DNA of 33,242 nt. It comes from a bacterium (GTDB lineage Bacteria > Myxococcota_A > UBA9160 > SZUA-336). Of this stretch, positions 1 to 13,879 are shown one piece after another. The position numbers and the translations under genes are program-made. Location of the stretch: contig JAAELY010000228.1 of assembly GCA_024226335.1 (NCBI GenBank), positions 1-33,242 of the forward strand, in the 5' to 3' direction. Positions within the stretch are counted from its first letter, which is position 1; each line of letters starts with the position of its first letter. The notes under the pieces were generated by a model. The model ran no database searches and had not been told where the DNA came from. It saw only the letters and a program-made list of their open reading frames with translations.

Positions 1-624
1 ACGCGGGATGCGATCTTTGCAGGGATGAAGCGGCGAGAATCCTATGCGACCTCGGGGCCGCGCATCCTCCTGCGCTTCTTTGCTGGCTGGGGCTTCGACG
101 CTGCGATCGTCGCCGATCGCAACCCGGTCGCGGTCGCCACCGATGGTGGCGTTCCCATGGGAGCCGCGCTGCAGCCGGAGCAAGAAGGGGCCGAGAGCCC
201 GACCTTCTTCGCCTGGGCCGGCGCCGACTGGATGAGCGCTCCGCTCCAGCGCATTCAGGTCGTCAAGGGTTGGATCGACGCCGACGGAGAAACGCACGAA
301 TCGGTGCGGGACGTCGTCTGCGCAGACGGCCTCGAGGTCGACCCGAATACACTTCGCTGTCCGGACAACGGCGCCTCTGTCGACACCAGTTCCTGCCAGA
401 CGCGCGGCGAGCGCGGAGCGGGACAGCTGATGGTGGCCTGGCAGGACGACGACTTCGACGCGAGTCAGGGCGCCTTCTACTACGTCCGGGCGATCCAGAA
501 CCCGACCTGCCGCTGGTCGACGTACGACGCGATTCGCCTGGGCATCGAGCCAGACCCGCGCGTGCCCGCGACAATCCGCGAGCGGGCCTGGTCGTCACCC
601 ATCTGGATCGACCCACCGAGCTAG
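1..624 (+). CDS. DUF3604 domain protein, C-terminal part (5' end outside window)
   Basis: The reading frame is open from base 1, so this is the last 207 codons of a longer gene; the first ATG inside the window (25) is internal. The segment AGMKRRESYATSGPR is followed by a C-terminal stretch with RWSTYDAIRLG and ERAWSSPIWI. These are the hallmarks I associate with the end of DUF3604 proteins, which are typically about 600-700 aa. Function of the family is not established; members are often exported or periplasmic and occur near sulfatases and other catabolic genes. No signal peptide can be judged because the N-terminus is missing. A 129-bp gap separates it from the acyl-CoA dehydrogenase downstream. 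Family call is confident; role unknown. Confidence 0.85.
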   Translation, partial: TRDAIFAGMKRRESYATSGPRILLRFFAGWGFDAAIVADRNPVAVATDGGVPMGAALQPEQEGAESPTFFAWAGADWMSAPLQRIQVVKGWIDADGETHESVRDVVCADGLEVDPNTLRCPDNGASVDTSSCQTRGERGAGQLMVAWQDDDFDASQGAFYYVRAIQNPTCRWSTYDAIRLGIEPDPRVPATIRERAWSSPIWIDPPS

Positions 625-753
625 CCGCGCCGACCCGGCCACTCTTCCTGTCCGCCGAAGAAGTTATGATGCGCGTGCATTCCACGAAACCTCCCGCCAC
701 CGGATCCGGAGCAACAGGCTTCGACCCGGCGAGCAAACCCGTCAGGAGACCCC

Positions 754-1980
754 ATGGCCATCGATTTCACGTTTCCCGAGGACGTCCAGATTGCGGTCGA
801 CCATGTCCGGAAGTTCTTGGACGACATCGTTCGCCCCTCCGAGAAGAAGATCGCCGCGCACAAGGACTCGCGAGAGGTCCTGGTCAAGGAAGTGATCCAC
901 ATGCGCATGGCCGCCCAGGAATGGGGCCTTTGGCTGCCCCACATGCCGGAGGAGTATGGAGGCATGGGACTCGGGCACGTGGCGATGGCCAGCGTTTCGG
1001 CCGAAGCAGGAAAGACGCGCTTTGGCCCCTTCGCGTTGAACGCCCAGGCTCCCGACGAGGGCAATATGCACACGCTCCTCCACTTCGCCACGCCGGAGCA
1101 GATCGAAAAATACTTGAAGCCGCTATGCAAGGGCGTCGCTCGCTCCTGCTTTGCCATGACCGAACCCTCTGTCGCGGGTTCTGATCCGACCTTGATTCAG
1201 ACCAAGGCCGTCGAGAAAGACGACCACTGGCTGATCAACGGTCACAAGTGGTTCATCTCGGGCGCCACCGGCGCTCAGTTCGCCATCCTGATCGCGCGCA
1301 CGGAAGACGATCCGGAAATTCGCCAGGCCTGCAACAGCGCCTTTCTCGTCGACATCCCGTCCGAGGGTTGGGACATCCTGCGCGATGTGGAAACCATGAG
1401 TGGCGGCCACAACCACTGCGAAATCCGCATCACCAATCTGAAGGTTCCCAAGCAGAACATGCTAGGCGGCCGGGGCCAGGGACATCGCCTTGGGCAGGCT
1501 CGACTCGGACCGGCACGGCTTGCGCACTGCATGCGCTGGATCGGACAGGCCGAGATCGCGCTCAACATGACGATCGAGCGATCGTTGGAGCGGTACGCTC
1601 ATGGATCCCTACTGGCCGAGAAACAGGGCATCCAGTGGATGATCGCGGACTCGACGATGGAGCTTTACCAGTCGAAACTGATGGTCCTCCACGCGGCGTA
1701 CAAGATCGACGCCGGTCAGGACTTCAAGAGCGAGGTTTCCATGGCCAAGCACTTCGTCGCGAACTCGCTCGGCCGCATCATCGACCGTGCCATTCAGGTT
1801 CACGGCGCCCTGGGGTACAGCAAGGACACGCCCTTGGCGGACATGGCGACCAATGCGCGCTGGGCCCGCTTCGCGGATGGCGCCGACGAGGTGCACCAGT
1901 GGCGCATCGCGGAGCGCGCCATCGAGGCGTATTCGAAGACGGGGAGCGTGAGCAGCGCCGCGGGAGACCTTCCCCTGTAG
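754..1980 (+). CDS. acyl-CoA dehydrogenase (ACAD10/11-like)
   Basis: A 408-residue flavoenzyme expected to catalyse alpha,beta-dehydrogenation of an acyl-CoA, passing electrons to ETF. The sequence shows the usual three-part ACAD layout: an N-terminal helical domain (EYGGMGLGHV), a middle beta domain with FAMTEPSVAGSDPT and INGHKWFISGA, and a C-terminal helical domain with QVHGALGYS and ARFADGADEVHQWRIAERAI. The GADEVH context is typical of long-chain/ACAD11-type members. Length is normal (about 390-410 aa). The ATG at 754 is preceded by AGGAGA at suitable spacing. It appears to be a single gene, followed by a hairpin at 2085-2108. Substrate chain length cannot be read from sequence. Confidence 0.93.
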   Translation: MAIDFTFPEDVQIAVDHVRKFLDDIVRPSEKKIAAHKDSREVLVKEVIHMRMAAQEWGLWLPHMPEEYGGMGLGHVAMASVSAEAGKTRFGPFALNAQAPDEGNMHTLLHFATPEQIEKYLKPLCKGVARSCFAMTEPSVAGSDPTLIQTKAVEKDDHWLINGHKWFISGATGAQFAILIARTEDDPEIRQACNSAFLVDIPSEGWDILRDVETMSGGHNHCEIRITNLKVPKQNMLGGRGQGHRLGQARLGPARLAHCMRWIGQAEIALNMTIERSLERYAHGSLLAEKQGIQWMIADSTMELYQSKLMVLHAAYKIDAGQDFKSEVSMAKHFVANSLGRIIDRAIQVHGALGYSKDTPLADMATNARWARFADGADEVHQWRIAERAIEAYSKTGSVSSAAGDLPL

Positions 1981-2084
1981 GAACGCATCCCGCAAAGAGC
2001 CGCACAAATCTCCCGGCGCCGGGCTTGGATGTCGAGCGAGGCTTCGACCGCGCATCAGGCCGCCCGAAGCATGGGATTGGCCGA

Positions 2085-2108
2085 AGCGACTTCATGCAGG
2101 AAGTCGCT
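2085..2108. terminator. hairpin downstream of acyl-CoA dehydrogenase / tRNA-Arg remnant
   Basis: A perfect 9-bp stem (AGCGACTTC / GAAGTCGCT) with a 6-nt loop. It lies about 105 bp past the acyl-CoA dehydrogenase stop. On the opposite strand its last base touches the CCA end of the tRNA-Arg remnant, the position expected for a tRNA terminator. No T-tract follows on either strand, so termination is plausible but not proven. Confidence 0.4.
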
Positions 2109-2157
2109 GGCGCGCCGGGAGGGCTTCGAACCCCCGCCCCTCAGGTTCGAAGCCTGA
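2108..2157 (-). pseudogene. 3' half of a tRNA-Arg(TCG) gene (integration scar)
   Basis: Read on the minus strand, the segment has a 5-bp anticodon stem (TCAGG/CCTGA) with a 7-nt loop CTTCGAA (U33, anticodon TCG, A37). A 5-nt variable region, a T-arm GGGGG-TTCGAAG-CCCTC, the 3' acceptor strand CCGGCGC, G73 and an encoded CCA follow. Upstream (minus sense) there is no D-arm and no matching 5' acceptor strand GCGCCGG, so the gene is not intact. Such 3' tRNA halves typically mark attachment sites of integrated elements. The sequence 5' of it carries phased 10-bp repeats. Not expected to be functional. Confidence 0.7.
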
Positions 2158-2199
2158 ACGGAGAGTGAGGAAAATCAAATAGTTACGCGATTCTAAGCG

Positions 2200-2229
2200 G
2201 GAATACGCAGGAATAGACGGGAATACGGT
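2200..2229. repeat. three tandem 10-bp repeats (GGAATA-N4)
   Basis: Three consecutive decamers, GGAATACGCA, GGAATAGACG and GGAATACGGT, share the core GGAATA at exactly one helical turn. They lie about 40 bp from the truncated tRNA-Arg. Phased repeats beside a tRNA scar resemble arm-type binding sites of tyrosine recombinases, but a plain tandem duplication is also possible. Confidence 0.5.
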
Positions 2230-2400
2230 ACCCCCCCGCCTGCACTTCCTCGCTCGACGCGCCATCAATGAACGCTACGGGATCCTGCGTGCACTCCCGT
2301 GGTCATCCGCCGGTCTTCGTGGATCAGAGCTGAGATCCGAAACGGGAAGCGGATCGCGTAGCGGTAGAAGTCCTTTCCTTCACTGGAGTGCAAGGTGTTT
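2230..2400. other. rest of the 1981-2506 gap, no gene recognised
   Basis: Between the iterated repeats and the sulfatase promoter I see no recognisable gene. A short minus-strand reading frame (about 46 codons, containing GKDFYRYAIRFP) looks faintly protein-like but has no convincing start or family match, so I do not call it. Confidence 0.3.
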
Positions 2401-2420
2401 TCGAGATCAGATTATCAAAA

Positions 2421-2457
2421 TTTGGTCATAGACAAAATTTTAGCAATGATCGATATT
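2421..2457 (+). promoter_or_regulatory. promoter/operator copy 1, upstream of sulfatase
   Basis: The -35 TAGACA (2429-2434), 17-bp spacer and -10 GATATT (2452-2457) lie 50 bp before the sulfatase ATG. An imperfect inverted repeat TTTGGTCATAGACAAAA (2421-2437) overlaps the -35. The same module recurs before the carotenoid oxygenase (4899) and the nitroreductase operon (8350), including the spacer motif TTTAGCAATGATC. It is the most diverged copy. It probably binds the TetR protein encoded at 4163-4876; this is inference. Confidence 0.7.
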
Positions 2458-2506
2458 CGGCTCCACACCTTCAAAAGAGCCGCCGCCCCATCGAGGAGAC
2501 CCTGCC

Positions 2507-4090
2507 ATGACGAACGAGGCCTCTCTCACAAAGGCCGAGAGCCTGGCCCCTCGAGGCCATCCTCTCCTGCCATTCTGGATGGCGCTCGTTTCTCTGGTTG
2601 CGATGGCCGGCCCCGCCTCCACGCTGGCAGATTCCCACACACAATCCCCGCCCTCTGCCGGCGTGGCGGCGGCCGACCGCCGACCGAATATCCTGATCCT
2701 GCTGGCAGACGACCTCGGCTGGGGCGATGTCTCCTACCACGGCAGCGAGATTCGGACGCCGCATATCGACAACCTCGCGCGCAGGGGGATCGAACTCGAT
2801 CGCTTCTACGTCCAGCCGACCTGCAGCCCGACCCGAACTGCTCTGATGACAGGGAAGTCGCCGATGCGCATCGGGATCACGCGACCGATCACTAAGAATG
2901 AGAAAGGTGGCCTCCCGCTTGGCGAGACATTGCTGCCGGAACATCTCGCGCGAGCCGGCTATCAATCGCTGATGTCAGGCAAGTGGCATCTCGGCCATTA
3001 CACACCCGAGATGTTCCCCCACGCCCGGGGTTTCGAGTCCTTCTACGGTCATGTCAGCGGTGGCATCGGCTATTGGGATCACAACCACGGCGGGGGCCAC
3101 GATTGGCAACGCGATGGCGTAACCGTTCGAGAGGAGGGCTATACGACCCATCTGATCGCGGACGAAGCGCTGCGCCTGCTCACCACTCGCGACCGCACCC
3201 GCCCTGTATTCCTCTACGTCGCCTTCAACGCCCCGCACATTCCGAACGAATCGCCATCAGACGCGCTCGCTCGTTATGCGTCGATCGAAGACCAGAAGCG
3301 TCGCATTCACGCGGGCATGGTGAGCGAACTCGACTCCGCCATCGGCCGAATCCTCGCGGGCTTCGAAGAGGAAGGAATCCTCGGCAACACCCTCGTCTTC
3401 TTCTCGAGCGATAACGGCGGCATCGTCCCCGGAACCGGCCCCCCGGCACTCTTGAATGTCGCTCGTTTCTTCGACGCGATCTTCGACCGACCAATCCCCA
3501 TCCCAGGCTTCGAGTTCCTCGTCGCAAATCTACTCGACGGGGCGAGCGACAACGGCCGCTTGCGCGGCGCCAAGGGCGACCTCGGCGACGGTGGAAGCCG
3601 GGTCCCCGCAGCGATCTGGTGGCCCGGTCACCTCGAAAACGGAACCCATGAGCGTTTCATGACAATCTCCGACCTCCTCCCGACGCTGATGGAAGCGATC
3701 GGCGCAGCGGACGCGATTCCGGGTGATCTGAATGGCCGCAGCCAATGGGCGGCGCTGAACGGAGATCCCTCCAACAGCGAGACACCCGATTACGTCACGA
3801 CCGGCCTTTTCGGAGAAGCCGCGTTCTATCGCCCCCCCTGGAAACTCCACGTGACGGACCCGCCCGAACTCTACGACGTATTCGATGATCCCTACGAGGA
3901 GCGCAACGTCGCGGGCGAGAATCCGGAGGTCGTCGAGGCTCTATTGCAGGCCACAGAAGCCTGGCCTCGCGGAAGGGCCACCTCGGCGACCATCGCCGAT
4001 AGTTTTTTCGATCCGGACCTCTTTGGTGGTCGGGAGGATCGCGAGCCCTGGGCGGATGTCGCTCGAGAGCGGGCATCCCGCACGAATTGA
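2507..4090 (+). CDS. exported type I sulfatase (arylsulfatase family)
   Basis: A 527-residue formylglycine-dependent sulfatase hydrolysing a sulfate ester. Residues 1-42 hold a positively flavoured start and a hydrophobic stretch (FWMALVSLVAMAGPASTLA), consistent with a signal peptide and periplasmic or extracellular location. Metal-site motif ILLADDLGWGD (D68, D69) precedes the C-S-P-T-R signature at 106-110, where Cys106 is the residue converted to formylglycine. SGKWHLGH (157-164), NAPH (241-244) and SSDNGG (D302/N303) complete the active site. Length is typical. ATG at 2507 follows GGAGA. It stands alone behind promoter/operator copy 1, so it is probably co-induced with the oxygenase and monooxygenase operons. 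The substrate is unknown; an organosulfate of the compound degraded by the neighbouring genes is an inference. An anaerobic sulfatase-maturating enzyme or FGE must exist elsewhere. Confidence 0.93.
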   Translation: MTNEASLTKAESLAPRGHPLLPFWMALVSLVAMAGPASTLADSHTQSPPSAGVAAADRRPNILILLADDLGWGDVSYHGSEIRTPHIDNLARRGIELDRFYVQPTCSPTRTALMTGKSPMRIGITRPITKNEKGGLPLGETLLPEHLARAGYQSLMSGKWHLGHYTPEMFPHARGFESFYGHVSGGIGYWDHNHGGGHDWQRDGVTVREEGYTTHLIADEALRLLTTRDRTRPVFLYVAFNAPHIPNESPSDALARYASIEDQKRRIHAGMVSELDSAIGRILAGFEEEGILGNTLVFFSSDNGGIVPGTGPPALLNVARFFDAIFDRPIPIPGFEFLVANLLDGASDNGRLRGAKGDLGDGGSRVPAAIWWPGHLENGTHERFMTISDLLPTLMEAIGAADAIPGDLNGRSQWAALNGDPSNSETPDYVTTGLFGEAAFYRPPWKLHVTDPPELYDVFDDPYEERNVAGENPEVVEALLQATEAWPRGRATSATIADSFFDPDLFGGREDREPWADVARERASRTN

Positions 4091-4162
4091 AGCAACGGAG
4101 GGTCCAGGGCGGCTATTCGTAGCCTTCGAAATCCAGACCCGGCTAGACGGTTCCGGCCTCGT

Positions 4163-4876
4163 TCACTTCAGACCTCTGACTTGCGCCTTGCGTCGGGCGG
4201 GCTTCGTCGAGCGCGCCTTGCGTAGTCGCGTCAGCTTTCCGATGAGCGCGGGGCGGAAGGTCTCCTCCGCGTCGGCAGCCAATCCGATGTAGGACGCCTG
4301 TAGCACGGTCTCGCGGAATTCCTCGATGGAGATCAGGCGAAACGCCCAGTCTCGCGAGGCAACGCGATAACTCGCGAAGATCCTCTCGCCGAGGATGTCG
4401 GGGGGGATCGAACCTCGCAGCTGCCCTTGCTCCTGAGCCGTCCGGCACGCCTCCGTCATGAGCGCGACGGCCCATCGGGTCAAGCCTCCCCTCTTTCCCC
4501 AGATCTTCTCCTGATCTGAGAAGAACTCGTTGGCCACGAACGCGGCACGGTAGAAGTCCTCTTCTGCGCTGAAGAGCGATGTGGATTCGTTCGCCACGGC
4601 CTCAAGCAGCGCCACGGCCTCAAGCAGCGCCACGGGCTCCGCCTCTGCGAACGCCTCCAGCCGGGCTTCGAGCGCGGCCATCGTCTCGGAGATCAGCATG
4701 AGGAGGATCTCTTCCTTGTTGCCGATCAGGTTGTAGAGAGTGGGCTGAGTGACCCCGGCTGCATCGGCCAGGGAGCGCATGTTCAAGCTCGGAAAGCCGC
4801 GCTCGGCGATCGTGCGCCGCGCTTCCGCCAGGATCCGCCTGCGGCGCTTTTCCATGTTGATCGCTCGTGTACTCAT
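4163..4876 (-). CDS. TetR/AcrR family repressor, likely controls the region 2 catabolic genes
   Basis: A 237-residue regulator. Residues 8-60 form a TetR DNA-binding domain: a basic N-terminus (MEKRRRRILAEA), RGFPSLNMRSLADAAGV and the recognition helix region TQPTLYNLIGNKEEILL. The C-terminal ligand domain is unremarkable except for a duplicated VALLEA segment created by an 18-bp tandem repeat at 4593-4628. I use the ATG at 4876; a GTG at 4888 and an ATG at 4855 are alternatives, and none has a clear ribosome-binding site. The gene is divergent from the carotenoid oxygenase, with operator copy 2 in between, so autoregulation is likely. The ligand is unknown. The first ~20 codons plus promoter are duplicated at 8281-8400. 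Confidence 0.9.
   Translation of the reverse strand: MSTRAINMEKRRRRILAEARRTIAERGFPSLNMRSLADAAGVTQPTLYNLIGNKEEILLMLISETMAALEARLEAFAEAEPVALLEAVALLEAVANESTSLFSAEEDFYRAAFVANEFFSDQEKIWGKRGGLTRWAVALMTEACRTAQEQGQLRGSIPPDILGERIFASYRVASRDWAFRLISIEEFRETVLQASYIGLAADAEETFRPALIGKLTRLRKARSTKPARRKAQVRGLK
4593..4635. repeat. 18-bp tandem duplication inside tetR
   Basis: GCCACGGCCTCAAGCAGC occurs twice head to tail (4593-4610, 4611-4628), followed by a partial third copy. It is in frame and inserts one extra VALLEA unit into the ligand-binding domain of the TetR protein. Confidence 0.85.
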
Positions 4877-4948
4877 TCGAGGTTTCACACTAGCAAATTT
4901 TAGTCATTGACAAAACTTTAGCAATGATAAATATTCTGGATCCAGAAG
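4830..4948. repeat. long duplication, copy A (tetR 5' end plus promoter)
   Basis: This ~119-bp segment covers the first codons of tetR, the divergent operator and the start of the carotenoid oxygenase leader. It aligns almost without gaps to 8281-8400, with high identity by eye. Identical stretches include GTCATTGACAAAACTTTAGCA. This copy is the likely original because it joins an intact tetR gene. Confidence 0.85.
4899..4935 (+). promoter_or_regulatory. promoter/operator copy 2, tetR/carotenoid oxygenase intergenic
   Basis: A canonical -35 TTGACA (4907-4912), exactly 17 bp, then -10 AATATT (4930-4935), 44 bp before the oxygenase ATG. The inverted repeat TTTAGTCA-T-TGACAAAA (4899-4915; 7 of 8 positions symmetric) covers the -35. 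A bound TetR dimer here would block RNA polymerase and could also repress the divergent tetR gene. Nearly identical to copy 3 at 8350. Confidence 0.8.
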
Positions 4949-4978
4949 ACGCCCTCAACCAATCCAGGAGAACCTTCC

Positions 4979-6394
4979 ATGCTAATCGAAATCGACTATC
5001 TGTCCGAGGCCATGCGGCCAGATCCTGTTGAGTCGGACTACACCATCACCAAGATCGAAGGTGAAATCCCCCGGGAACTGAACGGGACCCTCTACCGCAA
5101 TTGCCCAAACCAGAAGACCTCGCCAAAGGCCGGTCCTGGCGTATTGCATATGTTCGACGGTGACGGTTTTGTCAGTGCTTGGCGTTTCGAAGACGGCAAG
5201 GCCCGTTATCGCAGCCGCCACCCTCGCACGGAGAGCTTCCTGCGCGAGCAGGAGGAGGGCGAATACTGTCTCGGCGGACTCAACGTTGGGCCAGACCGCG
5301 CGCTACGGAATCCGCCGCCGAACTATCAGGCCAACACCAACGCCGTCTACCACGCCGGTCGGCTTTGGGCAATGCATGAAACCATGCCACCCTTCTTCAT
5401 GGATCCGGACACCCTCGAGTCGAAGGGCATCTGGGATTACGATGGCAAGATGCTCGGAATGGCGTCTGGTGCCCATCCATGTATCGACGTGAGAACGGGC
5501 CAGATGTTCCAATGTGGCTACCAACCCATGGCACCCTTCCTGCAGCTCTACGTTGTGGAGGCCGACGGAAAGGTCTCTCTGGCAGAAGCGGTCGATACCC
5601 CCTGGGCTGGCAAGATCCACGACATTGCGATTACCGAGAACTACATCATCGTCCCGCTCGGAGCCGTCGACATCAGCTACGAGAACCCGGACAGGAATGA
5701 TCCTCTTGGGGGCCTGAAGGCACTACGGGCACGGCCCGACCTGAACTTGCGGTTCGGCATCCGCAAGCGCGAGCCGGGTAGTCCCATGCAGTGGTTCGAG
5801 GTCCCCGACAGTCACTACATTCTGCACGTCGGAAATGCCTTCGAACGGGATGGGAAAATCATCATGGATGCCCCCGCTTGGGAGAATCCGACTGCCTTTG
5901 TCGAAACTATCAAGCACCTTCGCGAAGGCAAAGTCGATCCGGACGCAGCACACTGTCATCCCCGCGTCTACGAGTTCGACCTGGCCACTGGGACCTGCAA
6001 AGGGACCAAAGTGAGCGACATGTTTGCTGAGCTAAACCGGTTTGATGATCGCCTGATGGGATACGAGAATCGGTATGGCTACGCTTCGGTGGGGAGACCG
6101 GGCGAGGGAATATTCCGAAGTGTTGGAAAATACGATCGCTCGGGCGGGCCGATGGCGATCCAGGACGCTGTGGAAGGCAATTTTGTCGGCGAGCCCATCT
6201 TCGTTCCTCGTAGTCAGGACGCAGCCGAGGACGATGGTTTTGTCATCGCCTTGCGCCACGATGGACCCAACGATCGTACAGGCCTCGACATCCTGGACGC
6301 ACGGGGTGTAGACAAGGAACCGCTGGCGCGTCTATGGCTGGATCACCGAGTTCCGTTCAGCCCCCATGGTTGCTGGCGGCCCGAAGGCACTTAG
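4979..6394 (+). CDS. carotenoid cleavage oxygenase / lignostilbene dioxygenase family
   Basis: A 471-residue non-haem iron dioxygenase of the RPE65/CCD superfamily, which cleaves C=C double bonds of carotenoids, apocarotenoids, stilbenes or related phenylpropenes. The N-terminus shows IEGEIPRELNGTLYRNCPN and HMFDGDG, typical of the family. The four iron-binding histidines of the beta-propeller can be placed at H166 (GAHPCID), H214 (KIHDIAIT), H283 (ILHVGNAFE) and H463 (FSPHGCW). Length is typical. ATG at 4979 follows AGGAGA. No signal peptide, so cytoplasmic. It is transcribed from promoter/operator copy 2 and faces the FAD oxidoreductase across an IS remnant. Substrate cannot be read from sequence; bacterial relatives include both stilbene and carotenoid cleavers. 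The C-terminus ends just after the last histidine, so minor 3' loss by the IS insertion is possible. Confidence 0.9.
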   Translation: MLIEIDYLSEAMRPDPVESDYTITKIEGEIPRELNGTLYRNCPNQKTSPKAGPGVLHMFDGDGFVSAWRFEDGKARYRSRHPRTESFLREQEEGEYCLGGLNVGPDRALRNPPPNYQANTNAVYHAGRLWAMHETMPPFFMDPDTLESKGIWDYDGKMLGMASGAHPCIDVRTGQMFQCGYQPMAPFLQLYVVEADGKVSLAEAVDTPWAGKIHDIAITENYIIVPLGAVDISYENPDRNDPLGGLKALRARPDLNLRFGIRKREPGSPMQWFEVPDSHYILHVGNAFERDGKIIMDAPAWENPTAFVETIKHLREGKVDPDAAHCHPRVYEFDLATGTCKGTKVSDMFAELNRFDDRLMGYENRYGYASVGRPGEGIFRSVGKYDRSGGPMAIQDAVEGNFVGEPIFVPRSQDAAEDDGFVIALRHDGPNDRTGLDILDARGVDKEPLARLWLDHRVPFSPHGCWRPEGT

Positions 6395-6444
6395 TAGTTC
6401 TGGGATCTTGGCTTGAACCTCATGCCGCTTCCCTCTGCACCTGC

Positions 6445-6476
6445 CTCACGCCCGCTGCGTACGCAGCGGGCGTGAG
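6445..6476. repeat. 32-bp perfect palindrome between convergent genes
   Basis: Two 16-bp arms (CTCACGCCCGCTGCGT and its exact complement) meet without a spacer. It lies between the ends of the carotenoid oxygenase and the FAD oxidoreductase, next to an IS remnant. It could form a strong hairpin acting as a bidirectional terminator, although no T-tract follows, or be part of an IS end. Confidence 0.75.
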
Positions 6477-6488
6477 CTGACCCATCGC

Positions 6489-6584
6489 CTAACGAGTGAA
6501 ATCGTCGATCACGGTGAGGACTCGGAGCTGCCGTCCGTCGATCGTCTGATCGGCGACGAAGTCGTAGCTCCAGACGTGGTTCAG
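6489..6584 (-). pseudogene. IS3-family transposase (OrfB) remnant
   Basis: The minus strand encodes NHVWSYDFVADQ followed by a stretch ending LTVIDDFTR and a stop. This is the opening of the rve/integrase core of IS3-family OrfB, in which the Asp of WSYDF is the first catalytic residue. Only about 31 codons remain; the rest of the element and both terminal repeats are not recognisable. It begins within the stop codon of the FAD oxidoreductase gene, whose last codons may have been altered by the insertion. Confidence 0.8.
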
Positions 6585-8242
6585 TGACTCTCCCGCCAGG
6601 CGTCCCAGTCGGGGCGGAGCTCGGGTAGCGCATCCCGGTCTCCCATCGTCTCGCCGGCGAGAGCGGGCGTGAGGAGGTCTGATTCGAGCACCTCCCCCGC
6701 TGCGAGCACACCGCCGCGTAGTACTCCCATGACTCCCCCACCCGAGGGTGTGCTGGCGCCGCACAGGAACAAGCCCTCGATCTCCGTGCGCGGCCCGACC
6801 CGCATCGGGACCGGTGCCTCGATTCCGTTGGCGGTGCCTCCGGTGGAGTGTGTAAAGCGTTCCTGGCTCACCGGTGTCGCCGCTTCCTTCCAGACGATGT
6901 GCTCCCGGATGTCCGGGATCAGCTGCAGATTCGTGTCGATCATCTGCTCCACGAACTCGCTCTTGCGTTTTTTGTACTCCGCGTCGCGGTGATAGCGTCC
7001 GCCATCAGCGGGGCCCCGGTCCACGTTCCACACCCCGTAGTCCCGCGGCGCGAGGGTCATGATCTGCAGGTTCGTGTGCCCCTCCGGTGCCAGGTGCTGG
7101 CTCACCGGGTCCATCGTGGTGGCGGTGGTCAGCATGGTCATCTTGGCGTTCAGCCGCCCAGCATCGAGTTTGTCGTACACGCCCTCGATGTCGTAGTCGC
7201 CCCAGGTGTAGTGGTTGCTGTTGGGCATGCCGCGTTCCGCGAGGTCCACGTCGAGGCCGAGATACACACTGACGAGAGGTAAGGACATCTTGAGGGCTCG
7301 GATGTACTCAGCGGTTTCTTCGCCGAAGTGCTCCTCGCCGACCAGCTCGAAAACAGTTCGTTTCAGGTCGGCATTCGAGACGACCACCGGCGCATCGATC
7401 TCCTGCTCGTGACGCCCCTTCTGTCCGACGACCACCCCGCGCACGTGACCTCCCTCGACGCGGATCTTCTGCACCGGGCTCTTCGTGCGCACTTCGCCGC
7501 CGTAGGCTCGGATCGCTTCGATCAGCCGGCCGGCGATTACCTGGCCTCCACCCACCGGGTAGTAGGCTCCGCGCAGAAAGTAGTCGATGAAACCGGCCGC
7601 CATGACCACCGGGGTTTCCGAAGGCCGCACGGCGTAGGTAGCCTGCTCGCCAAGCAGCACAGCCTGCGCGCGCTCTCCGAGCCGATGCTCCGCGAAGAGC
7701 TCCGTCACGGGCCGGAGCCCCCACGGCAGGAAGCCGGGTGCCCGCTCGGCCAGCTGCGCCAGTTCGAGTTCGCCCCGTTGCATGCGGCGACCGGCCTGGG
7801 ATACCCCGTGCATCACGTCGAGCACCGCGTCCAGCGCCTCGCGCTCGCGGGGAAAGGTCTCGTGTAGGCGGGCCCGGTAACGGTCCCAGCCGAACGGAAT
7901 TCGGAACTCGAGATCGGGAAAGTGGAGGGTGGTGTAGCCGTCGGAGTCGAGGGGACGGAAGACCACGCGCTCAGCGAGGCCGACTCCGTTCAGTACAGCG
8001 GTGATCATGCCATCACGCCCGCACTCCCCGATATAGTGGACGCCGACGTCGAACTCAAATTTCCTGCCCTGGTGGTCGCGACGGAACGCATGGGAATTCC
8101 CCCCCGCCACGTAGTGGGCTTCGAGGACCAGAGTTCGCTTGCCCGCGGCGCATAGGTAGGCGGCGGTGGACAGACCGCCGAGTCCCGAGCCGACGACGAT
8201 GGCATCCCATTGCTCGCGTTCGTCCGGGGTCGCGTCGCTCAT
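6581..8242 (-). CDS. phytoene desaturase/CrtISO-like FAD-dependent oxidoreductase
   Basis: A 553-residue NAD(P)/FAD-dependent oxidoreductase of the phytoene desaturase, carotenoid isomerase and retinol saturase group (COG1233). It has the N-terminal dinucleotide-binding motif GSGLGG (18-23) with acidic residue E41 ending the second beta-strand (LVLEAHYVAGGNS). It also has an internal PVGGGQVIAGRLIEAI, and the C-terminal FAD-binding signature LFLCGASTPSGGGVMGVLRGG. Members saturate, desaturate or isomerise conjugated polyenes or similar hydrophobic substrates. ATG at 8242 follows GGAGAA. It is divergent from the nitroreductase operon and convergent with the carotenoid oxygenase. Its own promoter is unclear, because the conserved promoter motif upstream points the other way. 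The tail runs directly into the IS3 remnant, so the native C-terminus may be altered. Co-occurrence with a carotenoid-oxygenase-family enzyme hints at a polyene or stilbenoid substrate. Confidence 0.88.
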   Translation of the reverse strand: MSDATPDEREQWDAIVVGSGLGGLSTAAYLCAAGKRTLVLEAHYVAGGNSHAFRRDHQGRKFEFDVGVHYIGECGRDGMITAVLNGVGLAERVVFRPLDSDGYTTLHFPDLEFRIPFGWDRYRARLHETFPREREALDAVLDVMHGVSQAGRRMQRGELELAQLAERAPGFLPWGLRPVTELFAEHRLGERAQAVLLGEQATYAVRPSETPVVMAAGFIDYFLRGAYYPVGGGQVIAGRLIEAIRAYGGEVRTKSPVQKIRVEGGHVRGVVVGQKGRHEQEIDAPVVVSNADLKRTVFELVGEEHFGEETAEYIRALKMSLPLVSVYLGLDVDLAERGMPNSNHYTWGDYDIEGVYDKLDAGRLNAKMTMLTTATTMDPVSQHLAPEGHTNLQIMTLAPRDYGVWNVDRGPADGGRYHRDAEYKKRKSEFVEQMIDTNLQLIPDIREHIVWKEAATPVSQERFTHSTGGTANGIEAPVPMRVGPRTEIEGLFLCGASTPSGGGVMGVLRGGVLAAGEVLESDLLTPALAGETMGDRDALPELRPDWDAWRESH

Positions 8243-8280
8243 CGTGAATTCTCCATTCGTTCGGTTGAAGGGGCGGGGCC

Positions 8281-8400
8281 AGGATCCGCTTGGCGCGCTT
8301 CTCCATGTTCATCGTTCGTGTACTCGTTCGGAATTTCACATTAGCAAAATTTAGTCATTGACAAAACTTTAGCATAGATCAATATTCTGGAATTCAGAAG
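8281..8400. repeat. long duplication, copy B (tetR 5' fragment plus promoter)
   Basis: The counterpart of 4830-4948. Read on the minus strand it still encodes TRTMNMEKRAKRILA, the N-terminus of the TetR protein, but the start ATG corresponding to 4876 is ACG and the frame leaves homology after about 23 codons, so it is not a gene. On the plus strand the transferred promoter now drives the nitroreductase operon. This is direct evidence of regulon growth by copying a promoter/operator. Confidence 0.85.
8350..8386 (+). promoter_or_regulatory. promoter/operator copy 3, nitroreductase-monooxygenase operon
   Basis: -35 TTGACA (8358-8363), 17-bp spacer, -10 AATATT (8381-8386), 31 bp before the nitroreductase ATG. 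The inverted repeat TTTAGTCATTGACAAAA at 8350-8366 is identical to copy 2. It is predicted to place the five downstream genes under the same TetR repressor as the oxygenase. Confidence 0.8.
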
Positions 8401-8416
8401 AAAGGAGTTTCCAACG

Positions 8417-8869
8417 ATGAGTAATCCCCAAGGTCTGCCGCCGGAGATCGTCGAGCACATCCGCTTGTATCGAGAAGACCCGGAGAAAGCACACCACTGG
8501 GATTCGACGCCGTTGGGCGGACCCGGTGTCCTGACCACCCTGCTGCTCACCACCCGCGGACGCAAATCGGGCGAGCCGCGGTCGCTGCCACTCGTCTATC
8601 AGCAGGTGAACAAGTGCTTCGTCGTCGTGGCCTCGAAGAAGGGATCACCGGCCCACCCTGCTTGGTACCTGAATCTGCAGGCACGACCCGAGTGCGAAAT
8701 CCAGGTGGGCAACGAGCACTACCGCGTGCGCGCCCGCGATGCCGAGGGCGAAGAGCGCGGGCGGTTGTGGGGTGTCGTGACTGCGGCATATCCGCCCTAC
8801 GACGAATACCAGACAGCTGCCGGGAAACGACGCATTCCTGTGGTGGTACTCGACCCCATCGACGAGTGA
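8417..8869 (+). CDS. F420-dependent nitroreductase (Ddn) family protein
   Basis: A 150-residue split-beta-barrel protein of the deazaflavin-dependent nitroreductase family (formerly DUF385). Visible signatures are LLTTRGRKSGEPRSLPL near residue 45, VVASKKGSPAHPAWYLNL around 75-90, and ARPECEIQVG. Characterised relatives use reduced F420 to reduce quinones, nitro groups or conjugated double bonds. F420 use here is inferred from family membership. ATG at 8417 follows AAAGGAG at ideal spacing. It is the first gene of an operon running through the flavin monooxygenase, CoA-transferase, hydrolase and VOC genes, directly behind promoter/operator copy 3. It could supply a reduction step or protect against quinones formed by the ring-oxidising enzymes. 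Confidence 0.88.
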   Translation: MSNPQGLPPEIVEHIRLYREDPEKAHHWDSTPLGGPGVLTTLLLTTRGRKSGEPRSLPLVYQQVNKCFVVVASKKGSPAHPAWYLNLQARPECEIQVGNEHYRVRARDAEGEERGRLWGVVTAAYPPYDEYQTAAGKRRIPVVVLDPIDE

Positions 8870-8920
8870 CAACCGAACTCGTCGCAAGCTCTCAATCAAA
8901 AAAACAAGGAGTTCATTGAC

Positions 8921-10117
8921 ATGACTGCATTTGGATTTTCTGACTGGATGAAGAGGGCCGAAGAAGTCTCCCCACTGGTTGCCGCCGAGGCGGACGAAGC
9001 GGAGAGCCTGCGACACATGACCGATCGAACGGTTGAAGCGTTCAAGGAATCGGAGCTCTACTACCTCACGCTTCCGCAAGAGCTCGGAGGTCCCGATCTC
9101 CCTCTTGTCGAGTCACTGGAGGTTCTCGAGAAGGTCTCCGAGGCAGATGGCGCCGCCGGTTGGTGCCTCTTCGTCGGCAATATCGAGGTCGGGACAGCGG
9201 GAGCGTACCTGGCCGACGCCGGGATCGAGACCGTCTTCACCAAGCCAAAGGACTTGCTGATCTCCGGGCAGGGGATCCCGAACGGTGTGGCCCGACCCGT
9301 CGACGGGGGCTACCGCATCGACGGGGATTGGAAGTACGGCAGCGGCATCCATCACGCCGACTACATCCACAACGGCTGTATCGTGCTCGATGAGGATGGG
9401 AATCCCCGGATGACGGACGCGGGGAAGCGCGAGATCAGGATCTGCCTCACCGAACGCAAGCACGCCGAAATCAAGGACGACTGGCACGTGCTCGGCCTGT
9501 GTGCCACGGGCAGTTTCGATTACTCGATCCGTGACGTATTCGTCCCGACGGAGATGACGCACGACTTCGCAACGACGAAGCCGCATCGCGGCAGCTACCA
9601 GTTCACGCTGGGGTTGACCGGATACACCACCTGGGGACACACGGGTTTCGCTCTGGGCGTCGGACGTCACGCGCTCGACGAGCTGAAGAAGCTCGCGCAG
9701 ACCAAGGAGAACCCGTTTGGACTGCTCGGCGATGGCGAGAGCTTCCAAGTACGCTACGCACATGCCGAGGGCAGCCTGCGGGCCGCGCGAGCCTTCTGCT
9801 ATTCGGCTTGGGACGATCTGTGCGAATCGATGGCGAGGCAAGAGCCCGCAAGCCTCGATCAAATCGCACTGATCCGTCTCGCGATGTCCAATGTACACGA
9901 TGTAGTGTCTGATATCACCACGTTCGCCCACATTGCGGGGGGAGGCGTCTCGCTTCGCCACAGCCCTCTCCAGCGCTGCTACCGCGACATGCACGCGGGT
10001 ACGCAGCACATCCTGTTGGCCGACCAGATCCGGCAGGATACGGCGAAGGTGTTGTTGGAGATGGCGCCCGAGAATGCTCGATGGTCCCCTCTCGGCCTCG
10101 AGGCGCCTTCCGCGTAA
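8921..10117 (+). CDS. class D flavin monooxygenase (HsaA/acyl-CoA dehydrogenase-fold hydroxylase)
   Basis: A 398-residue protein with acyl-CoA dehydrogenase fold resembling two-component flavin hydroxylases such as HsaA, DszC and pigment-biosynthesis hydroxylases, rather than true dehydrogenases. Evidence: [14 protein letters not shown] near residue 80, [21 protein letters not shown] (substrate loop region) around 127-147, [16 protein letters not shown], and a C-terminal helical part with [26 protein letters not shown], where a His in RDMHAGTQH matches the family's conserved region. Such enzymes ortho-hydroxylate phenols using FADH2/FMNH2 delivered by a separate reductase. No reductase gene is adjacent, which is notable. 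ATG at 8921 follows AAGGAG. It sits in the nitroreductase operon and fits a ring-hydroxylating step before the dioxygenase and CoA-transferase. Confidence 0.88.
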
Positions 10118-10142
10118 CAACGGAGTGCAGGAAGGGCCCAGC

Positions 10143-11492
10143 ATGAAACGAGTTCCCCAGATCTCACCCGAGCGGGCCGCGGCCATGGTCGAAACGGGTG
10201 ACACGATCCTGGTCGGCGGATTCGGCATGACCGGACATCCGGTCCATCTGCTTCACGCACTTGCCGAGACCGGTGTTCGGGACCTGACGTACGTCGCCAA
10301 CAATGTGGGTGAAGTCGGACTCGGCGGCGGTCGGCTCCTGAGCAAGGGGCAGATCAAGAAGGCGATCGGCTCGTTTTTCACAAGCAACCGCGAGGCAGTG
10401 GCGGCCGCGCAGCACGGGAGCATGGAGATCGAGCTTCTTCCCCAGGGATCGCTTGCCGAGGCGCTGCGCGCGGGCGGCGCCGGAATCGGGGGCTTCTTCA
10501 CTCCGGCTTCGGCGGGCACCGTCATCGGAGAGGGAAGGGAGACGAGGATCTTCGATGGAAAGCCGCAGGTGTTCGTACCGGGCCTTCGCGGCGACGTAGC
10601 CTTCATCCGGGCTTGGAAGGCGGATACCGCCGGCAACCTGGTCTACCGGATGACCGAACAGAACTTCAACAAGGCGATGGCGACGGCGGCTGATCTGGTC
10701 ATCGCCGAGGTGGAGACGATCGTTCCGGTGGGCGAAATCGCCCCCAACGAGGTTCACACGCCGGGTTGTTATGTGGATCGTCTGGTTGAAGCGCGCATGA
10801 CCCTGGACGACCTCGGGTCTTCTGCGTCGGTGGCATCCAGCGCAAGAAAGGTTGACCCGCTGCGGATGAACATGGCGCACCGCGCGTTGGCGGAGCTGAA
10901 AAGCGGGGACGTGGTGAATCTGGGGATTGGGATTCCCACCCTCGTGGCAGACCTGATCACTCCCGAACGCGGGATCGTCCTTCATACGGAGAACGGAATG
11001 CTCGGCGTCGGCCCCGCGCCAGCGGAGGGCGGCGCGATGGAGTACCCCGTGAACGCCGGGAAGGTCCCGGTTACGGCGCTGCCGGGAACCAGCTACTTCG
11101 ACAGCGCGGATTCGTTCGCCATGATTCGCGGTGGCCACGTGGATATTGCGATCATGGGCGGGCTGCAGGTGGACGAAGCCGCGAACCTCGCGAACTGGGC
11201 GGTTCCCGGCAAGCCGCTATTGGGGGTGGGCGGTGCGATGGATCTCGGCTCGGGAGCCAAGCGGCTCATCATCACAATGACTCACACCAACTCCGACGGG
11301 AGCCCGAAGCTGGTTCCACAGTGCGACCTGCCGCTCACGAGTCGGAACGCGGTGGACCTGGTGATCACGGATCTTGCGGTCTTCTCGTTTGCTCCGGGCG
11401 ATCTCACGCTGGTCGAGCTGATGCCTGGGGCAAACCTGGAACAGGTGAGATCCGCGACCTCGGCGAAGTTCGTCGAGAGGTTGCCGGGTTGA
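10143..11492 (+). CDS. 3-oxoacid CoA-transferase, fused A and B subunits
   Basis: A 449-residue succinyl-CoA:3-ketoacid-type CoA-transferase in which both subunits are joined. Residues 1-~235 form the A part ([28 protein letters not shown]). Residues ~240-449 form the B part ([15 protein letters not shown]), with the catalytic glutamate E283 in the motif TENGMLGVG that forms the glutamyl-CoA intermediate. I use the ATG at 10143 because it follows GGAAGG and begins the family's N-terminus; the frame is open further upstream inside the monooxygenase gene, but that extension is not conserved-looking. The enzyme activates a 3-oxo acid (acetoacetate, 3-oxoadipate or a larger analogue) for thiolysis. 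Its place in the operon after ring hydroxylation argues for a 3-oxoadipate-like intermediate, but specificity cannot be read. Confidence 0.92.
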
Positions 11493-11556
11493 ATTCGAGC
11501 CGACGCGCCGTGGCCACCCCGCGTCGCGGGCCTCGGTCGGGTCGACAGGAGGCGAG

Positions 11557-12282
11557 ATGCTGGAACGCGAAGTAGACATCAAGCGTGCCGACGGTGACAT
11601 GAACACCTTCATCACACATCCAGAAGAAGGTGGACCCTATCCGGTCGTGCTGTTCTACATGGATGCGCCCGGAAAGCGGGAAGAGCTGCACGACATGGCT
11701 CGCCGGATCGCCACCACGGGGTACTACGTGATGCTGCCGAATCTCTATTACCGCCGGACCCGGGCGTTCACGATGCCCCCGGGCTCCGAAGAGGAGATGT
11801 TCGAGCACATGGACTCGCTCTCGATCCAGATGGTGAACGAGGATACCTCAGCCATGCTCGAGCACGCGGCGGGCGACGGCCACGCCGCGGACGGTCCGGT
11901 CGGCGCGCTGGGCTACTGCATGAGCGGGCCCTTCGCCTTTGCTGCGGCCGCTGCGTTTCCCGATCGGATCGCCGCTTCAGCATCGCTGCACGGTGTGCGC
12001 CTGTGTACCGAAGCGGATGACTCGCCTCATCGTGACGCGAACAAGATCAACGGCGAACTCTACTTCGGTTGCGCGGAAACGGACGAGTGGGCACCCAAGG
12101 AGATGATCGACGAACTCGATGCCCACCTTGCAACGACCGGCGTCAACTACCGGATCGAATGGTACCCGGATACCACGCACGGCTTCGTCTTTCCGCAGCG
12201 TGGAGAGATGATCTACCACAAGGAAGCAGCCGAACGGCACTGGGAGCGGCTGTTCTCCCTGTTCCAACGGAATCTGACGTGA
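11557..12282 (+). CDS. dienelactone hydrolase family protein
   Basis: A 241-residue alpha/beta hydrolase of the dienelactone hydrolase family. The nucleophile elbow is GYCMSG with Cys121 as nucleophile (cysteine is characteristic of true dienelactone hydrolases), with D176 (AETDEW) and H208 (DTTHGF) completing the triad. The N-terminal FITHPEEGGPYPVVLFYMDA and late FVFPQR are also typical. No signal peptide. ATG at 11557 follows AGGCGAG. Dienelactone hydrolases open lactones formed during aromatic ring catabolism; some relatives act on other small esters. It sits between the CoA-transferase and the VOC dioxygenase, so a lower-pathway role in aromatic degradation is likely. Confidence 0.92.
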   Translation: MLEREVDIKRADGDMNTFITHPEEGGPYPVVLFYMDAPGKREELHDMARRIATTGYYVMLPNLYYRRTRAFTMPPGSEEEMFEHMDSLSIQMVNEDTSAMLEHAAGDGHAADGPVGALGYCMSGPFAFAAAAAFPDRIAASASLHGVRLCTEADDSPHRDANKINGELYFGCAETDEWAPKEMIDELDAHLATTGVNYRIEWYPDTTHGFVFPQRGEMIYHKEAAERHWERLFSLFQRNLT

Positions 12283-12296
12283 TGCCAACCGCCCTG

Positions 12297-12316
12297 CAGC
12301 TGACAAGGCTCAGCTG
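12297..12316. other. small hairpin between hydrolase and VOC genes
   Basis: A 7-bp stem CAGCTGA / TCAGCTG with a 6-nt loop, in the 69-bp spacer of the operon. It could affect mRNA processing or attenuate the last gene; no T-tract follows. Weak evidence for any function. Confidence 0.3.
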
Positions 12317-12351
12317 TCTCCCCGCCAATCGGCGCGCTCTGGAGGGTTCAG

Positions 12352-12897
12352 ATGCAACTCCGCTTCTCACATAACGCGATCAAAGTCCGCGACCTTGCTG
12401 TCATGCTCGACTTCTATGAGAACGTCCTCGGATTTCAGGTAACGGATCGCGGCCCCCTCCCGCGGCCCGGATCGCCGGAGATCGTCTTCCTCAGCCAGGT
12501 GGCGAGTGACCATCATCAGCTCGCCTTTGTCGACGTGCCACAGGACAGCGACGTGCCCGATACGCTCCTCCATATGGCCTTCCGCGTGTCGTCGATCACG
12601 GACGTCCGGGAGATGATCAAGCGGCTCGAAGAGGACGGGCTGGCGACCGATGTCGAGACCGTCACGCATGGCAACGCCTGGTCGGTCTACTTCAGAGACC
12701 CGGAGTTCAACCGTATCGAGGTGTTCTGTGACACGCCGTGGTACGTCCCGCAGCCCATCGTCGTGCCCTGGGACCCCGAAATGAGCGATCGGGAACTGTT
12801 CGAGCACACTGAAAAGCTCTTCTCGAACGAGCCGGGTTTCGGTCCGATGGAGGAGTGGACAGCCGCGCAGGCGGAGAAGGTCGGCGAAGAGACCTGA
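12352..12897 (+). CDS. VOC-family extradiol dioxygenase-like protein
   Basis: A 181-residue glyoxalase/bleomycin-resistance/extradiol dioxygenase (vicinal oxygen chelate) protein. Two beta-alpha-beta-beta-beta modules are visible: FSHNAIKVRDLAVMLDFYENVLGF and, later, LHMAFRVSSITDVREMIKRL through VYFRDPEFNRIEVFCDTPWYV. Metal ligands can be placed at H7, H74 and E123, matching the 2-His-1-carboxylate set of single-domain extradiol dioxygenases. GGAGGG precedes the ATG at 12352. It is the last clear gene of the operon behind promoter/operator copy 3. Ring cleavage of a catechol-type intermediate is the simplest role, but related VOC proteins catalyse isomerisation or epimerisation. Confidence 0.85.
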   Translation: MQLRFSHNAIKVRDLAVMLDFYENVLGFQVTDRGPLPRPGSPEIVFLSQVASDHHQLAFVDVPQDSDVPDTLLHMAFRVSSITDVREMIKRLEEDGLATDVETVTHGNAWSVYFRDPEFNRIEVFCDTPWYVPQPIVVPWDPEMSDRELFEHTEKLFSNEPGFGPMEEWTAAQAEKVGEET

Positions 12898-13093
12898 TGC
12901 GCCCGATCCGTACGTACGCGAGCTGAGCGAACTCTCTGATCTCGAGGCCGAGCTGTCAGCGGCCAACGACGCTGCGCTGCGCGCGCGTGCTCGCGACATC
13001 GGTGCGGCTCTGCTCGAATCGCCGGCCGTGTTGCGCGAGATCGCCGATCGGGCTCCGGCGGACGCCGAACCCGATCTAGGCGCAGGGCCATGA
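12897..13093 (+). pseudogene. small frameshifted ORF coupled to the VOC gene
   Basis: The VOC stop codon overlaps an ATG (TGATG at 12895-12899), the usual sign of translational coupling. The ATG frame ends after nine codons, yet a second frame from 12896 reads on smoothly for about 65 codons (DPYVRELSELSDLEAELSAA and ESPAVLREIADRAPADAEPD) to a TGA at 13091-13093. A single missing base near 12905 would join M-R-P to DPYVREL. I recognise no family. Either a decayed gene, a sequencing error, or a chance open frame. Confidence 0.4.
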
Positions 13094-13284
13094 CGATCCT
13101 GGACCAGGAGCCCGACCCAAGATGGACGGCGACGCCCAGACGCCTCTGCATCGCCGCCGCCGGCATTGCGCTCACTCAGGGAATCTACGGATTCGACCTC
13201 GATCGCGCGCCTTGGCGGCGACGCGCAGGGACGCCTGGCTCGCCGCCAGACATCTTGGGTCAGGCTCCTAGGTGTGGGTTCTAA
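13090..13284 (+). CDS. small hypothetical ORF, possibly a detached leader of the cytochrome
   Basis: Its ATG overlaps the stop of the preceding frame (ATGA). It encodes 64 residues with a short hydrophobic stretch (LCIAAAGIALTQGIYGF) after two arginines, signal-peptide-like but with no clear cleavage site. The next frame encodes a c-type cytochrome lacking a signal sequence. The two might once have been one exported cytochrome broken by a frameshift. No family recognised. Confidence 0.35.
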   Translation: MTILDQEPDPRWTATPRRLCIAAAGIALTQGIYGFDLDRAPWRRRAGTPGSPPDILGQAPRCGF

Positions 13285-13667
13285 GCAGGTTGTTCACGGA
13301 GCTCCCTGAGCCGCTGAAACGGGCTGCCCGCTGGAAGCCTTGCAAGGCCGACGCGAATTCGTACTCCGTAGCGAGCTACCGGACGGACGAACCTGTCGAA
13401 GCCATCGACTACACGCCTGAGCAAGTCGGACGCCTCACCTACATGGCCACGTGTTCCGGCTGTCACTCGGTCACGTCGAGTCTCGTCGGCCCGCCGATGA
13501 CCTATGTGCGTGCGATGTACAAGGACAGCCCTGAAAAGCTCGCCGCGTGGATCGCCGCTCCAGTTCGCCGGAACCGCGCATACACCGAGATGCCGCCGCA
13601 GGACTACCTCCCCAAGAGCACTCGCCTAGCGGTCGCGCGATACATCTTGGAGGAGCTCGACAAATAG
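13272..13667 (+). CDS. c-type cytochrome domain protein, no signal peptide (possibly truncated)
   Basis: A 131-residue frame starting at GTG 13272, just after an in-frame TAG at 13269. A single haem-binding motif CSGCH lies at 61-65, followed by LVGPPM and a candidate axial methionine M107 in YTEMPPQDYLP, then a terminal helix TRLAVARYILEELDK. This is the layout of class I cytochrome c. Haem attachment needs export, yet the N-terminus (WVLSRLFTELPEPLKRAARWK) is not a signal peptide, so the gene is either 5'-broken or the remnant of a larger protein. It lies 3' of the monooxygenase operon. Domain call is confident; functionality is doubtful. Confidence 0.7.
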   Translation: MWVLSRLFTELPEPLKRAARWKPCKADANSYSVASYRTDEPVEAIDYTPEQVGRLTYMATCSGCHSVTSSLVGPPMTYVRAMYKDSPEKLAAWIAAPVRRNRAYTEMPPQDYLPKSTRLAVARYILEELDK

Positions 13668-13862
13668 GACGTGGTCGAGAACAGCCTTCGTCGGTAGAGC
13701 ACACAGCGGCCGCAGACTCACCTCGACAACCGGGATACGACGTTCGACTTCCTCCCCTGCGGCGCCATTGGCATCCTCGCGTGAGGGAAGCCTCGCCCGA
13801 GATGCGAGGCCTCAGTGCGCCGGTTCCAACCGCCCGAAACCGCAGCTTTTCTCGAATTCGGT

Positions 13863-13879
13863 GGCGGGAATCGAACCCG
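13863..13879 (-). repeat. tRNA/tmRNA T-arm-like fragment; 17-bp identity to ssrA 3' end
   Basis: The minus strand reads GGAGCCGGGTTCGATTCCCG followed by CCACC, the look of a tRNA/tmRNA T-arm and 3' strand. Seventeen bases (13863-13879) are identical to 32185-32201 inside the tmRNA gene. No complete tRNA can be folded around it and there is no CCA. It may be a left attachment remnant of the element whose recombinase lies at 31461-32150, or a coincidental T-arm match. The rest of 13668-13970 shows no gene. Confidence 0.4.

Follow-up and report, generated by a model that had tools for sequence, protein, structure and literature searches.

How have three unrelated catabolic units come to stand behind what is nearly the same promoter? 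The question is raised by contig JAAELY010000228.1 (GenBank assembly GCA_024226335.1), a stretch of 33 242 nucleotides (nt), here called the window, from a bacterium of the lineage Myxococcota_A; UBA9160; SZUA-336 whose genome (5.75 Mb, 97.4% complete) is assembled in 556 contigs. A sulfatase gene, a carotenoid-type oxygenase gene and a five-gene degradative operon are each preceded there by a copy of a promoter/operator module, and the gene of a TetR-type regulator (tetR) lies divergently beside the middle copy. A preliminary description of this DNA had proposed that one module was copied in front of the three units and that they form the regulon of a single repressor. The copying is now strongly supported, fragments of tetR itself being present in the copies. 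The history that we consider probable, on the evidence of the sequence, is duplication of a regulator–promoter cassette and loss of two tetR copies, with the surviving TetR predicted to control all three units together.

The promoter/operator copies and their tetR remnants

The elements that make up the three copies are the following.

2352–2403, minus strand: remnant of mid-tetR, matching tetR 4538–4589 (about codons 97–113) and meeting promoter copy 1 at TTCG
2421–2457, plus strand: promoter/operator copy 1 (site 1), TAGACA-17-GATATT, 9/12 consensus; imperfect inverted repeat at 2421–2437, 6/8 pairs
4163–4876, minus strand: intact gene of a TetR/AcrR-family regulator of 237 amino acids (aa), PF00440 E 1e-10
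4897–4924, minus strand: candidate divergent promoter of tetR, TTGCTA-16-TAAAAT, 9/12 consensus, overlapping the operator
4899–4935, plus strand: promoter/operator copy 2 (site 2), tetR/oxygenase intergenic, TTGACA-17-AATATT, 10/12 consensus; inverted repeat at 4899–4915, 7/8 pairs
8277–8327, minus strand: remnant of the tetR N-terminus, first 16–17 codons, TSTRTMNMEKRAKRILA versus MSTRAINMEKRRRRILA; start codon ATG changed to ACG
8278–8401, plus strand: duplicated block matching 4827–4949, 124 nt, 86% identical, E 2e-34 in the genome-wide search
8350–8386, plus strand: promoter/operator copy 3 (site 3), TTGACA-17-AATATT, 10/12 consensus; inverted repeat at 8350–8366, 7/8 pairs

The three sites lie where the preliminary description had placed them, and its reading of a –35 element, a spacer of 17 base pairs (bp) and a –10 element holds at each. 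They account for three of the five sigma-70-like sites in positions 1–14000 of the window (shuffled sequences average 2.2), 30 of the 37 positions of the module are invariant among them, and 30–49 nt downstream of each forward –10 there is a start codon with AGGAG before it. Site 2 occupies the 102 nt between the divergent start codons of tetR (4876) and the oxygenase gene (4979), which is well within 200 bp and is the location to be expected of an autoregulated operator. Such a layout is usual for TetR regulators according to the available text of a mycobacterial survey, in which ∼60% of 663 regulators were divergent and most of these lay within 200 bp of their neighbour (PMC4482099). At site 2 the inverted repeat covers the rightward –35 and overlaps the leftward –10. 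The best minus-strand promoter pairs reach 8/12 consensus at sites 1 and 3 as against 9/12 at site 2; a 9/12 leftward promoter only beside the intact tetR is in keeping with the loss of the other tetR copies, although with three sites and a one-base difference it is an anecdote.

Sites 2 and 3 are parts of a 114-nt direct repeat of 87% identity (4827–4940 and 8278–8391), and the leftmost 50 nt of the duplicated block are tetR coding sequence. At 8278–8327, 43 of the 50 nt are identical to tetR and tblastn aligns 12 identical residues of 16; the minus strand from 8324 to 8277 still reads STRTMNMEKRAKRILA, compared with STRAINMEKRRRRILA in the intact TetR. Site 1 is tied to the other two by a 52-nt repeat (83% and 85% identity), and its tetR remnant is identical to tetR at 38 of 52 nt without a gap, the best of 60 shuffles giving 29 (blastn within the window, E 2e-4). 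When the 52-nt tetR frame was slid over the whole window, 38 identities were reached only at site 1 and site 3, in each case on the expected strand; elsewhere the same strand gave at most 31 and the opposite strand at most 32. At both extra copies the tetR pieces have the same strand and the expected order. TTCG is present within tetR at 4586–4589 and at the tetR start at 4876–4879, and the site-1 matches meet at TTCG; a single 290-nt deletion between these repeats would account for the arrangement. Differences from tetR at codon positions 1, 2 and 3 number 4, 7 and 3 in the site-1 remnant and 2, 3 and 2 in the site-3 remnant. An excess at the third codon position, the sign of a coding period, was sought in both remnants and was not seen; changes spread over the codon positions in this way are as expected for decayed non-coding DNA. 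The remnants, which are absent from the preliminary description, are the best evidence of copying: because scraps of tetR are attached to both extra promoters, what was duplicated was a cassette of tetR and its divergent promoter, two tetR copies of which have decayed.

At the stringency of our searches, the element is confined to this locus. A genome-wide search returned three exact members of the 17-mer family, all within the window, and a 25-mer with up to three mismatches likewise had three places in the genome, rather than the hundreds of copies that would have spoken against a regulon. Thus, the same site stands before several units and is not spread over the genome. A DNA search of the whole genome with tetR and its promoter found, after the query itself, only site 3 (E 2e-34) and site 1 (E 5e-8), the next matches having E 0.048 or worse. 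When up to two mismatches are allowed, the degenerate palindrome TTTNGTCANNGACNAAA occurs in this genome 25 times on the forward and 26 times on the reverse strand, and its reversed control 13 and 19 times; 6 of the 51 matches of the palindrome belong to the three sites, and the remaining 22 and 23, each with at least one mismatch, are somewhat above the control. Outside the window four places have a single mismatch, all of them inside open frames of 313–715 aa and not in promoter regions, and we claim no regulon members beyond the window. Beyond this genome, the 25-mer with up to three mismatches was found in none of the 376 other sampled genomes of the phylum (the one match among 377 being the genome itself), and an exact-pattern scan of viral contigs gave no matches. 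A search of plasmids with the TetR protein likewise gave no match at E 1e-5.

Taken by itself, each site is an ordinary promoter of the TTGACA or TAGACA type whose spacer is 17 nt long, so that three independent or chance sigma-70 look-alikes might be considered. We regard such an origin as extremely improbable: the 114-nt repeat that joins sites 2 and 3, the 52-nt repeat that includes site 1, the attached pieces of tetR and the absence of a fourth copy from the searches of the 5.75 Mb all stand against it, and the tetR remnants together with the failure to find a further copy led us to discard it.

Predicted control by TetR and the alternatives

The regulator belongs to the TetR/AcrR family. 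Its TetR_N domain (residues 15–59) scores 41.7 bits against PF00440, for which the cut-off is 24, and its AlphaFold2 (AF2) model is all-helical with ten helices (predicted local distance difference test score, pLDDT, of 82), in line with the family's helical fold and its C-terminal ligand/dimer domain, and gives a Foldseek probability of 1.00 to TetR-family structures. The nearest solved folds include Thermus thermophilus FadR (3anp/3ang; 22% identity, template modelling (TM) score by query 0.59–0.63) and EthR (17–18% identity, query TM-score 0.61–0.67), likenesses that warrant no claim about a shared ligand or operator. Against the KstR model NF033703 it scores 24.2 bits, far from the cut-off of 280. 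A short tandem repeat within the protein, ALLEAV twice, falls where the aligned relatives have a gap.

A local regulon of a single repressor, taking in the sulfatase, the oxygenase, the five-gene operon and perhaps a CrtI-like gene described below, is the best explanation of these features, with binding by TetR as its predicted element. In this scheme an ancestral cassette of tetR and a divergent promoter/operator would have been duplicated, its copies ending up before three unrelated catabolic units. One tetR copy would have been lost through the 290-nt deletion between TTCG microrepeats and subsequent decay, the other when its start codon and all that followed about codon 17 were lost, while the promoter/operator stretches were retained. 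A dimer of the surviving TetR (4163–4876) would most likely bind the 17-bp imperfect repeat that overlaps the –35 at all three sites. At site 2 the bound protein would shut both face-to-face promoters, that of the oxygenase gene and that of tetR itself, and in all TetR would repress the sulfatase gene, the oxygenase gene and the F420/HsaA-like operon together until it bound a compound of the pathway. Binding, repression and a ligand are what one would expect from knowledge of the family, as far as it is set out in the available text of the KstR study (PMC1995591) and of the mycobacterial survey (PMC4482099).

Several observations weigh against this explanation. An inverted repeat of 17 bp had been proposed at all three sites; one is indeed present over each –35, but it is imperfect everywhere. 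In TTTAGTCATTGACAAAA, seven of eight positions pair around a central T, and at site 1, where six of eight pair, neither of the two changes is compensatory and one breaks a pair. Among 2000 dinucleotide shuffles of the 56-nt surroundings, a repeat with a 1-nt centre was equalled in 4.2% (site 2), 3.4% (site 3) and 32% (site 1), and with centres of 0–5 nt allowed, 14–16% of the shuffles match the repeat at each site; sites 2 and 3 being copies, their figures are not independent. The repeat is thus marginally above chance, and what makes it a reasonable candidate for an operator is its place and not its statistics. Nor is the module clearly better conserved than the DNA around it. Sites 2 and 3 differ at 3 of 37 positions in the module and at 12 of 72 in the flanking copied DNA (p 0.18), and sites 1 and 2 at 5 of 37 and 14 of 52, respectively (p 0.10); module divergence being lower than that of the flanks but not significantly so, selection on the sites is not demonstrated and we do not use it as evidence. 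The 52-nt remnant at site 1 is too short and diverged to appear alone in a genome-wide DNA search (E 1), its support coming from its place and from the scan of the window. No close TetR orthologue was seen among the scored candidates of 90 genomes of the class (at most 7 candidates scored per genome in one scan and at most 31 in the class scan) or in the phylum sample, which leaves a cross-species test of the site without a proper subject; with no close orthologue and no site in the phylum sample, cross-species footprinting is impossible. The class relatives that were found among the scored candidates are 38–41% identical (6 of 90 genomes at E 1e-28, including this one), and a method that reaches close relatives only added one from the GTDB contigs, in a metagenome-assembled genome labelled Deltaproteobacteria bacterium MED660. 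Around the relatives' genes (∼1.5 kb flanks, less at one locus and 6 kb at the MED660 locus), the 17-mer with up to four mismatches was found near none of nine loci, apart from one 4-mismatch match at the MED660 locus. Finally, common origin alone would make the three sites alike even if TetR had ceased to bind sites 1 and 3.

This last point opens the way to a different account, in which sites 1 and 3 may be fossils or simple promoters, unregulated or differently regulated, and TetR controls its own intergenic region only. The lack of significant conservation over the flanking copied DNA and the repeat pair lost at site 1 favour it, and common ancestry suffices for the likeness of the three sites; against it, the spacing of –35 and –10 and most of the spacer have been kept in all three copies, with the 30 invariant positions noted above, though the two adjoining tetR copies decayed. 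We judge it unlikely. The shared element could also be the target of another regulator, for instance another TetR-like protein of this genome, or TetR could be an activator. Conserved TTTAGCA in the spacer and CAAA to the left, both outside the repeat, would then belong to the site of that other regulator. The three-way repeat does span 52 nt, wider than a 17-bp operator; an alternative inverted repeat, TCATTG-N12-CAATGA, is complete at site 2 and has 5/6 and 4/6 pairs at sites 1 and 3; and the genome holds 19 other TetR-like matches at E 0.001. The nearest of these is, however, only 30% identical over residues 3–206, and the copied unit includes tetR, so that the site travelled with that regulator. 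Such a target, or activation by TetR, appears to us more doubtful still than fossil sites. Joint control of the three units by the surviving TetR remains the reading that we prefer.

Catabolic genes and other features of the window

The preliminary assignments of the sulfatase, tetR, the carotenoid-type oxygenase and the five-gene operon are borne out by the Pfam and NCBIfam matches.

2507–4090, plus strand: sulfatase, 527 aa, PF00884 E 2e-58; CSPTR at residue 106; hydrophobic N-terminal stretch
4979–6394, plus strand: carotenoid-oxygenase/lignostilbene-dioxygenase family protein, 471 aa, PF03055 E 1e-102
6581–8242, minus strand: CrtI/CrtISO-like flavin adenine dinucleotide (FAD) oxidoreductase, PF01593 E 3.5e-19; TIGR02734 124 bits, below the 238 cut-off
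8417–8869, plus strand: F420H2-dependent reductase, operon gene 1, PF04075 E 1e-33; TIGR00026 97 bits, above the cut-off of 46
8921–10117, plus strand: HsaA-like flavin monooxygenase/acyl-coenzyme A (CoA)-dehydrogenase-fold protein, NF045629 125 bits, below the 450 cut-off; PF08028 E 4e-15
10143–11492, plus strand: fused two-subunit 3-oxoacid CoA-transferase, TIGR02428 and TIGR02429, both above cut-off
11557–12282, plus strand: dienelactone-hydrolase family protein, PF01738 E 2e-40
12352–12897, plus strand: VOC-superfamily protein resembling a single extradiol-dioxygenase domain, PF00903 E 2e-16; TIGR03211 53 bits, below the 320 cut-off

We take the CSPTR motif of the sulfatase to be of the formylglycine type, and the F420H2-dependent reductase is Ddn-like. 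The oxygenase reaches 237 bits with the lignostilbene dioxygenase model NF053778, for which the cut-off is 800, and is assigned to the wider PF03055 family only. About 35 nt separate the start of the CrtI-like gene from the site-3 tetR remnant on its right, so that the 5′ side of the gene faces the remnant and the minus-strand face of promoter copy 3; it may be a fourth unit of the regulon and a possible inheritor of the vacated divergent half-promoter. As to what the proteins might do together, the mix of genes allows a guess at a pathway for a sulfated aromatic or polyene substrate.

Homologues of the oxygenase with 47–58% identity (E 1e-90 or better) are encoded in 10 other genomes of the class, none of them in the same family. 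The neighbourhoods of these homologues in nine of the ten genomes and of four HsaA-like loci showed neither synteny nor the site, some of the 13 loci being cut by contig ends and two starting less than 400 nt from the oxygenase gene, with little of the left side visible. Of the other window proteins used as queries, none was found near the 13 loci except for a weak acyl-CoA dehydrogenase match at one of them. Two places that match the site with four mismatches, one of them on both strands, were taken as chance. The cluster thus looks to have been assembled in this lineage. Among eight loci of distant TetR relatives (six genomes), two have a sulfatase gene 1.1–1.2 kb away and one an adjoining CrtI-like gene, which is only suggestive, these families being common.

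Elsewhere in the window, a tyrosine-recombinase-like protein of 229 aa (31461–32150, plus strand) ends 24 nt from a transfer-messenger RNA (tmRNA) gene (32175–32538, minus strand), and tmRNA genes are classic integration sites of islands. A 25-nt stretch at 13860–13884 matches the tmRNA 3′ end at 88% and could be an attachment-site scar or common T-arm sequence. Positions 15989–17419 encode a protein of repeated DUF7450 units, the DNA of which contains a pair of 272-nt repeats and a 61-nt sequence in four copies, 306–315 nt apart. The minus-strand gene run at 19834–28122 (luciferase-like monooxygenase, class-III aminotransferase, two amidohydrolases, carbon–nitrogen hydrolase and AMP-binding ligase) may be a separate operon for the catabolism of nitrogen compounds, and another TetR-domain frame lies at 27493–28491.

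Known systems and the growth of regulons

The closest precedent is the TfdR/TfdS regulon of plasmid pJP4 for degradation of 2,4-dichlorophenoxyacetic acid, where related regulators lie divergent to operons and one of them has been inactivated. As far as the available text goes, TfdT of pJP4 is inactive owing to an insertion element and lies divergent to tfdCDEF, an operon listed in the regulon of TfdR/TfdS, which are intact (PMC6449761), and tfdT is truncated in pJP4 and in most pPO plasmids (PMC10531765). The pJP4 regulators are activators of the LysR type, one inactivated by an insertion element, according to the same accounts, whereas the regulator here is of the TetR type and left two short remnants. 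We recognised no insertion element beside these remnants, and the three target units are unrelated. The tfd operons of pJP4 are homologous to each other. The locus described here has the same kind of history as pJP4, in this case for a regulator of the TetR type, with two remnants left and with target genes that are unrelated.

In its parts the locus resembles KstR (Rv3574), for which the accessible portion of the study describes a palindrome that overlaps the –10 of KstR's own divergent promoter and of which more copies precede target genes (PMC1995591). Common to both are a TetR-type regulator, a divergent neighbour and a palindrome, here a marginal one, over the core promoter that is repeated before catabolic genes. 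The KstR site, given in that portion as TnnAACnnGTTnnA, differs in sequence from the repeat found here. For KstR, the same text reports that binding was shown, that predictions in two mycobacteria gave 16 and 31 other sites and that the motif is conserved across genera (PMC1995591), whereas this genome has its three sites in a single locus and TetR binding is a prediction. Among the listed open-access papers on duplicated operators, regulator remnants and promoter capture we found no description of such copying of a TetR cassette, which is a weak test of absence, and the available parts of the literature on lignostilbene dioxygenases with TetR (including PMC12997858) and on this lineage contained nothing on such regulation.

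The individual parts, a TetR switch, a sigma-70-like promoter and catabolic genes, are ordinary. In our own reading, the growth of regulons is often told as gradual expansion, as in the available text on LacI regulators (PMC4052901). The scars of another route are legible here, where pieces of the regulator gene are still attached to two of the three copied promoters. We lean, with some reserve, towards the view that this regulon was being assembled by copying whole regulator–operator–promoter cassettes, the surplus regulators being discarded afterwards, and not by the evolution of one site after another, and that the CrtI-like gene may have taken over the vacated half-promoter at site 3. If TetR binds all three sites, the locus would document how a regulon grew through duplication of a cassette and loss of regulators, and the sulfatase, the carotenoid-type oxygenase and the F420/flavin operon would be tied into one predicted degradation pathway.

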